Origin: an archaeon
Lineage (GTDB): Archaea > Nanobdellota > Nanobdellia > Woesearchaeales > GW2011-AR4
Direction: 5' to 3'
Length of the DNA stretch: 59,130 nucleotides
Assembly: GCA_002688925.1 (NCBI GenBank)
Contig: NZEC01000018.1
Coordinates: 1-59,130 of the forward strand
The notes below the pieces were generated by a model. It did no database searches. It saw nothing but the letters and a program-made list of their open reading frames with translations, and was not told where the DNA came from. The position numbers and the translations under genes were made by a program. Positions 25,779 to 37,671 of this stretch are shown here, in pieces. Position 1 is the stretch's first letter; each line of letters begins with the position of its first letter.

Positions 25779-25862
25779 GCCGCGGTCGCATAATCCGGCA
25801 TTGCGCTGGCCTTGAGAGCCAGTTTCCTTCGGGATATCCCGGTTCAAATCCGGGCCGCGGCG
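25779..25862 (+). tRNA. tRNA-Ser (anticodon TGA), no intron
   Basis: Acceptor GCCGCGG/CCGCGGC with discriminator G. The anticodon arm is CTGGC-CTTGAGA-GCCAG (anticodon TGA). It has a long class II variable arm, and the T-arm is CCCGG-TTCAAAT-CCGGG. It is the only tRNA of the seven in this window without an intron. It serves as a template for reading the interrupted tRNA-Ser(GGA), with which it shares the D-arm GCATAATC.GGCATTGC. Confidence 0.97.
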
Positions 25863-37049: not shown

Positions 37050-37228
37050 TATATGATAAAATATATTTTATATTTACTAATAAATCTTATAATGTTTTAT
37101 ATATTTTATAATATACTATTTAAAACTTTCTAAAGTATAGGAGAATTTATGGGATTTTAGCATATTCGATGCCTAAAGTTTTATAAATAAAATACAAATA
37201 CATTTTAATGCCGGGGTATGGTTTTCAT

Positions 37229-37370
37229 GCCGGGATATTCATCCCGAACGCATAATCTGGCATTGCACAGATAGCTAAACGCTAGTGTAAGCCTGGAAAG
37301 CCTGGCCCTCACGGGCATCTGGGTTCAAAACAGCTGATATTTACAGTTGGTGAAAGTCCCAGTCCCGGCG
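37229..37370 (+). tRNA. tRNA-Ser (anticodon GGA) with three introns
   Basis: After removing three introns the tRNA is regular: acceptor GCCGGGA/TCCCGGC + G, D-arm as in tRNA-Ser(TGA), anticodon arm CAGGC-CTGGAAA-GCCTG, variable arm GCCC-TCAC-GGGC, T-arm CTGGG-TTCAAAT-CCCAG. Intron 1 (37237-37248, 12 nt) at 8/9: outer ATGC/GCAT, central CGGG/CCCG. Intron 2 (37271-37290, 20 nt) at 29/30: central GCAC/GTGT, inner TAGC/GCTA. Intron 3 (37330-37356, 27 nt) in the T-loop at 59/60: central TTCA/TGAA. All have 3-nt bulges cut after the second base. Confidence 0.95.
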
Positions 37371-37381
37371 TTTTTATTATT

Positions 37382-37556
37382 GCTCCCATAGTGTAGTCCG
37401 ATTCCTCAAAAAGGAAGACTAAGCCAATCATATTGCCCTCTCGCAACTGGATGCAGTTCGCTTATGCTCACAGCATGGAGAAAGGCAATGACTCGGGTTC
37501 AAATATCCCAGAGGGAGAACGCAAATCCCTCGGATTTGAGAGTCCCGATGGGAGCA
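37382..37556 (+). tRNA. tRNA-Glu (anticodon CTC) with three introns
   Basis: Acceptor GCTCCCA/TGGGAGC + A, anticodon arm TTGCC-CTCTCGA-GGCAA, T-arm TCGGG-TTCAAAT-CCCGA. Intron 1 (37401-37422, 22 nt) in the D-loop: central AGTC/GACT, inner TTCC/GGAA, bulges CGA and AAG. It restores the standard GTCCGGCCAATC. Intron 2 (37444-37482, 39 nt) at 37/38: central CTCT/GGAG, with two internal hairpins AACTG/CAGTT and ATGCT/AGCAT. Intron 3 (37504-37542, 39 nt) in the T-loop at 59/60: central TTCA/TGAG, inner ATCC/GGAT. Confidence 0.93.
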
Positions 37557-37671
37557 TTTTATACTTCTAAAATCATAGGGTAAAAAACACAGAAAGGGAT
37601 GATGACAAATTATTGGCTTATTTGGAAAAAATAGAAAATGCAAGAGATACAACTTTCTTTAGATAAAATAA

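Follow-up and report, generated by a model that had tools for sequence, protein, structure and literature searches.

A leader copy of the acceptor strand probably keeps the precursor of a three-intron archaeal tRNA-Ser(GGA) spliceable

Multiple-intron tRNA genes have been described in the Thermoproteales, where 29/30 and 59/60 are listed among the bulge-helix-bulge (BHB) sites and 3/4 is the extreme case (PMC4090602). Here we analyze a tRNA-Ser(GGA) gene that likewise holds three introns. It lies in a 59,130-nt stretch of DNA (the window), positions 1-59130 of contig NZEC01000018.1 (C18) from an archaeon of the order Woesearchaeales (assembly GCA_002688925.1, 864 kb, 85% complete). Unlike the Thermoproteales genes, it is interrupted at 8/9, a site that the reviews consulted do not name, and it has a surrogate acceptor strand in its leader, a feature those reviews do not describe (PMC4090602). 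Our results favor the reading that this leader-encoded strand keeps the precursor spliceable, and that intron removal probably precedes both formation of the acceptor stem and cleavage by RNase P. Neither an archaeal 8/9 intron nor a leader imitating the 5' half was found in the literature searched, the key subscription papers being outside its scope. The 8/9 intron itself may have been seen before and the introns are of a known kind; the surrogate leader appears to be new within that literature.

The arrangement recalls several described systems without coinciding with any of them. In the split tRNAs of Nanoarchaeum, Caldivirga and the Desulfurococcales, extra complementary sequence outside the mature tRNA also holds the halves for splicing (PMC4090602, PMC3218864). 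There, however, it forms an intron-like duplex at the cut, which that of the window gene does not, and here a single transcript is involved, in which the extra sequence is a copy of the 5' half that pairs with the 3' half of the same tRNA. With the permuted tRNAs of Thermofilum and red algae the gene would share splicing before end maturation, as well as an unusually long spacing between promoter and tRNA (PMC3218864, PMC3978253), but its halves stand in normal order and no 3' half lies upstream. The exons follow each other in that order within 142 nt, behind one TATA box, and on these grounds both a split tRNA assembled from separate genes and a permuted tRNA were ruled out. Bacterial pre-tRNA leaders that pair with the 3' RCCA also act beside the acceptor stem and affect RNase P; the bacterial leader extends the acceptor stem, whereas in our gene the leader would replace its 5' strand (PMC9433436).

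The tRNA-Ser(GGA) gene (37229-37370) consists of four exons and three introns of 12, 20 and 27 nt (Table 1). A preliminary description, made from the sequence alone, had assigned its identity and had placed the introns at 8/9, at 29/30 and in the T loop; both assignments hold. ARAGORN calls the fully spliced 83-mer, and only that, as tRNA-Ser(gga). It calls no tRNA in the unspliced gene and does not call Ser in versions that retain one intron. In the window the gene was missed by both ARAGORN and the Rfam tRNA model, a warning that gene finders overlook such tRNAs and may misplace their 5' ends. The spliced product aligns closely with tRNA-Ser(TGA) at 25779-25862, as had been proposed. A second Ser(GGA) gene, which the preliminary description had named, together with a lack of splicing here, as a finding that would count against it, was not found across the whole 864-kb assembly at its 85% completeness.

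At 8/9, the preliminary description correctly identified a 12-nt intron whose central helix pairs the acceptor strand CGGG with CCCG inside an outer helix ATGC/GCAT, and these pairs are kept in relatives; the copy of the acceptor strand further upstream (37210-37215) was overlooked. With a central helix of 4 bp, two 3-nt bulges (ATA and AAC) and a canonical tRNA after removal, the intron has the features of an archaeal BHB tRNA intron. Its inner helix is minimal or nearly absent, and the motif is therefore of the relaxed BHB type. In the first five genes identified, the two splicing-motif hairpins (8/9 and 29/30) are paired in 100% of cells, two-sided changes occur in each central helix, and three pairs of the 8/9 outer helix are never broken. 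Such conserved and covarying hairpins indicate that the predicted motif is more than a chance pairing. In the outer helix, the partners of leader positions -2 and -1 are positions 13 and 12, and position -1 is able to pair in this way in all nine genes described below (A-U or G.U), in agreement with the earlier proposal that part of this helix comes from the leader. Together with the role proposed below for the leader copy, this means that early cleavage by RNase P would damage the motif in two ways.

The overlooked copy, GCCGGG, repeats acceptor positions 1-6 and begins 19 nt before the true 5' end. Measured from the first base of TATAAA, its distance is 28 nt, and it is 28-29 nt in all six members of the same family (f1). 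Across the wider set, the copy lies 28-31 nt past a TATA-type box in eight of nine genes and, judged by eye, about 33 nt past it in the ninth (G554), while the true 5' end of intronless Ser relatives lies 27-33 nt past the TATA box. The copy thus occupies the predicted transcription start, and we infer that transcription begins near 37210.

Pattern searches that were blind to the leader covered 353 genomes of the order, with five 8/9-intron genes, and 378 genomes of the class, which added three; a further gene (G025) was found by a model that included the leader, and the same model also recovered the class members. The resulting nine Ser genes, that of the window and eight from relatives, come from three families (G000, G034, G025, G010, G018 and G020 in f1; G512 and G554 in f111; G548 in f127). 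Each has a leader copy 16-40 nt from the true 5' end, exact in eight and, in G512, reading GCTGGG and pairing through a U.G wobble. Acceptor pair 5-68 has changed from G-C to A-U in G010 and G020 (GCCGAG/CTCGGC), and there both the copy and the intron carry the matching change. An exact copy was present in 3 of 67 Ser genes without an 8/9 intron, two of these three having entered through searches that potentially favored such copies, against a copy in nine of nine with the intron (Fisher p=7.6e-8). Within its own genome the combination is confined to Ser(GGA), as a de novo scan detected no other tRNA with both an acceptor copy and an 8/9 intron. A search for synteny through the upstream ATPase gene yielded no orthologous tRNA locus.

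Folding calculations suggest what the copy may do. In the first five precursors, the copy is paired with the 3' acceptor strand and the 8/9 motif is present in the minimum-energy fold or one close to it, and the folds of G025, G512 and G548 show the same arrangement in outline. When folds were constrained, the state with the splicing motif was predicted to beat the native acceptor by 5.0-12.2 kcal/mol in nine of nine genes if the leader was present, and the native acceptor was favored by 0.4-9.9 kcal/mol, again in nine of nine, once the leader was cut off. For the window gene the computed advantage conferred by the leader falls from 12.2 kcal/mol to 4.6 on removal of the 8/9 intron alone. Folding energy rises when the leader is shuffled (combined p=1.7e-11, nine genes), whereas shuffling has no effect in 16 Ser genes that lack the copy (p=0.55) or in 17 other tRNA genes of the same genome (smallest p=0.20). 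The leader also pairs with the anticodon region beyond what spacer shuffles give, with p=0.019 for the window gene, a combined p=3.8e-6 for five genes and p=0.036 for G025, whose anticodon stem differs and whose leader matches it. At position 40, a C faces a leader G; in G034 and G018, G40 faces a leader C.

According to our hypothesis, the 8/9 intron borrows the 5' acceptor strand and therefore competes with formation of the acceptor stem. The surrogate copy of positions 1-6 at the start of the leader would pair with the 3' acceptor strand (67-72), and in most members the leader would continue with a stretch that pairs with the anticodon loop and the 3' anticodon stem, taking the place of the 5' half for as long as the real one occupies the 8/9 and 29/30 splicing hairpins. 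The splicing endonuclease would then cut and the ligase join, after which the repaired 5' half would displace the surrogate strand, and RNase P would finally remove the leader. The larger reason for this order is that the 8/9 motif is not the preferred fold without the surrogate strand, and splicing would therefore come first. The preliminary description had also judged that splicing probably comes before 5' maturation, and the computed folds support it in this; the reason it gave, the outer helix, is the smaller one. On balance we lean toward regarding the leader as a cis-encoded RNA chaperone that imitates the 5' half, binds the 3' half, switches the precursor between spliceable and mature folds, and enforces splicing before 5' processing. 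Such a device would illustrate how an intron survives at a site where splicing diverts one acceptor strand into the BHB motif, a matter relevant to the archaeal tolerance of introns almost anywhere in a tRNA. It also predicts the sequence in which the precursor is processed and an exchange of RNA strands during tRNA maturation.

However, several observations weigh against this hypothesis, and the results should be read with them in mind. In G554 the unconstrained minimum fold does bring the copy and the 3' strand together, but its intron hairpin is arranged differently and the 8/9 motif is not formed as drawn. Some members show little or no pairing with the anticodon (G548 p=0.38, G512 p=0.052, G010 p=0.08). 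Even for the window gene stripped of all three introns, the simple energy model favors leader pairing by 3.8 kcal/mol; release must therefore rely on tertiary contacts, modification, proteins or RNase P, which lie outside that model, so that release is predicted to be easier after splicing, not spontaneous. Ser genes of other lineages (G282, G278, G094, G277) have an exact or near copy and no 8/9 intron, and the copy is therefore not exclusive to that intron; these genes could be forerunners, relics left by intron loss, or a sign that the leader has an independent role. Finally, the nine members are related, and their p-values therefore overstate independence, the combined ones being optimistic.

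The copy-only genes would also fit another explanation, in which the 8/9 intron undergoes ordinary splicing and the leader copy is a now functionless by-product of the way the intron arose, by duplication of the 5' end. Ser genes of other families have longer upstream duplications of tRNA 5' ends, and these point in the same direction. We nevertheless consider this explanation unlikely, given that the spacers have diverged past recognition, yet the 6-nt copy is kept and tracks compensatory changes, and that the folding switch is computed for nine of nine genes.

Less probable still, and in our judgment doubtful, is a leader that acts primarily as a regulatory sequester, hiding the anticodon and the acceptor until a signal or protein releases them, with its link to the intron secondary. 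The preference for the leader-paired form even after splicing (in the energy model), the pairing of the leader with the anticodon loop in several members and the existence of copy-only genes are all what such a sequester would produce. It sits poorly with the strong association between copy and 8/9 intron; moreover, no conserved sensor or protein site was seen, and the spacer sequence is unconserved.

We also considered that the upstream copy is the true 5' exon, in which case the tRNA would begin where transcription does and lose a 31-nt intron that includes the second copy. The position of the upstream copy at the predicted start agrees with this, and the product would still be a plausible Ser tRNA in the window and in G020, ARAGORN accepting the window version. 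In the other members, however, positions 7-8 after the upstream copy read CA, AC, TG, GC, CA, AG and TA, so that U8 is lost in seven of nine, whereas after the downstream copy U8 and a base 7 able to pair are present in every gene. RNase P RNA is present in most relatives and a leaderless start is therefore not required. We rejected this alternative on the loss of U8 and regard it as very improbable. A leaderless tRNA of the Nanoarchaeum equitans type was likewise ruled out, the true 5' end lying 19 nt past the predicted start and relatives having RNase P RNA, as was splicing between the two copies through a CCGG palindrome, since the GCCGAG of G010 and G020 is not self-complementary. Chance similarity or an assembly artefact, for which only the shortness of a 6-nt repeat speaks, deserves practically no credence in view of its recurrence in nine separate genomes with similar TATA spacing and matching changes.

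Returning to the leader as surrogate strand, part of the machinery it would need is encoded in the assembly, where a splicing endonuclease with both Pfam domains (PF01974 and PF02778) was identified. RNase P RNA was detected in 52 of the 59 genomes searched, including the members G010, G018, G034 and G025. In the 85% complete assembly of the window itself there was no match to RNase P RNA and no RtcB ligase was found; the simplest cause of both gaps is probably incomplete assembly. Given the RNase P RNA of most relatives, the idea that a lack of RNase P accounts for the design was rejected. The endonuclease gene (L138, G000:C9:18675-21935) adjoins a metallo-beta-lactamase gene with weaker matches to tRNase Z.

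Table 1. Features of the tRNA-Ser(GGA) locus, in window coordinates.
Feature	Position	Strand	Remarks
TATA box	37180..37187	+	TTTATAAA; from sequence
Leader copy of acceptor positions 1-6	37210..37215	+	GCCGGG; pairs with 37364-37369 in the minimum-energy fold
Leader segment	37220..37226	+	GGTTTTC; complementary to the anticodon loop and 3' anticodon stem (37296-37302) in the minimum-energy fold
Outer helix of 8/9 motif, 5' strand	37227..37230	+	ATGC; leader -2, -1 plus G1, C2; pairs with 37250-37253
Exon 1	37229..37236	+	tRNA positions 1-8; GCCGGGAT; relatives conserve U8 and the pairing with the 3' strand
Central helix of 8/9 motif, 5' strand	37231..37234	+	CGGG; pairs with 37243-37246; two-sided G-C to A-U change in 2/5 genes
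Intron 1, 12 nt at 8/9	37237..37248	+	ATTCATCCCGAA
Exon 2	37249..37270	+	tRNA positions 9-29
Intron 2, 20 nt at 29/30	37271..37290	+	central helix GCAC/GTGT, inner helix TAGC/GCTA
Exon 3	37291..37329	+	tRNA positions 30-59; anticodon GGA at 37295-37297
Intron 3, 27 nt at 59/60 (T loop)	37330..37356	+	central helix TTCA/TGAA
Exon 4	37357..37370	+	tRNA positions 60-73; 3' acceptor strand CCCGGC at 37364-37369
T-rich trailer, probable transcription stop	37371..37382	+	sequence only

Repeats of tRNA ends recur around Ser genes outside the group with the 8/9 intron. The copy-only genes are L249 (G282), L259 (G278), L258 (G277) and L203 (G094), with one mismatch in G277, and in G277, G278 and G282 the copy is found at the predicted transcription start. 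In other families, the region 53-74 nt upstream of the Ser genes L109, L298, L303, L304 and L287 repeats 8-14 nt of the tRNA 5' end, the repeat being the first strand of a hairpin in L109 and L304. Downstream of the gene, the tRNA 3' end is copied in L249, L266, L270 and L265, and L270 contains a near-perfect repeat of about 85 nt that terminates in the tRNA 3' terminus.

The T-loop introns of the Ser genes L127, L246, L273, L274 and L284 share a motif near GTTGCCTGACTTAACA. It may represent an intron-encoded small RNA; an Rfam search of T-loop introns gave no match in the loci tested.

Directly downstream of the tRNA-Ser(GGA) gene, at 37382-37557, lies a second tRNA gene that resembles a Glu tRNA (GCTCCCATAGTGTAGTCCG...GGGAGCA) interrupted by several introns, including in the T loop, and is called by neither ARAGORN nor Rfam. 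Elsewhere in the assembly, the same intron-containing tRNA occurs on two contigs (G000:C2:1321-1481 and G000:C12:2540-2700) with identical scores of 46.4 bits each, reflecting either a repeat or an assembly overlap.
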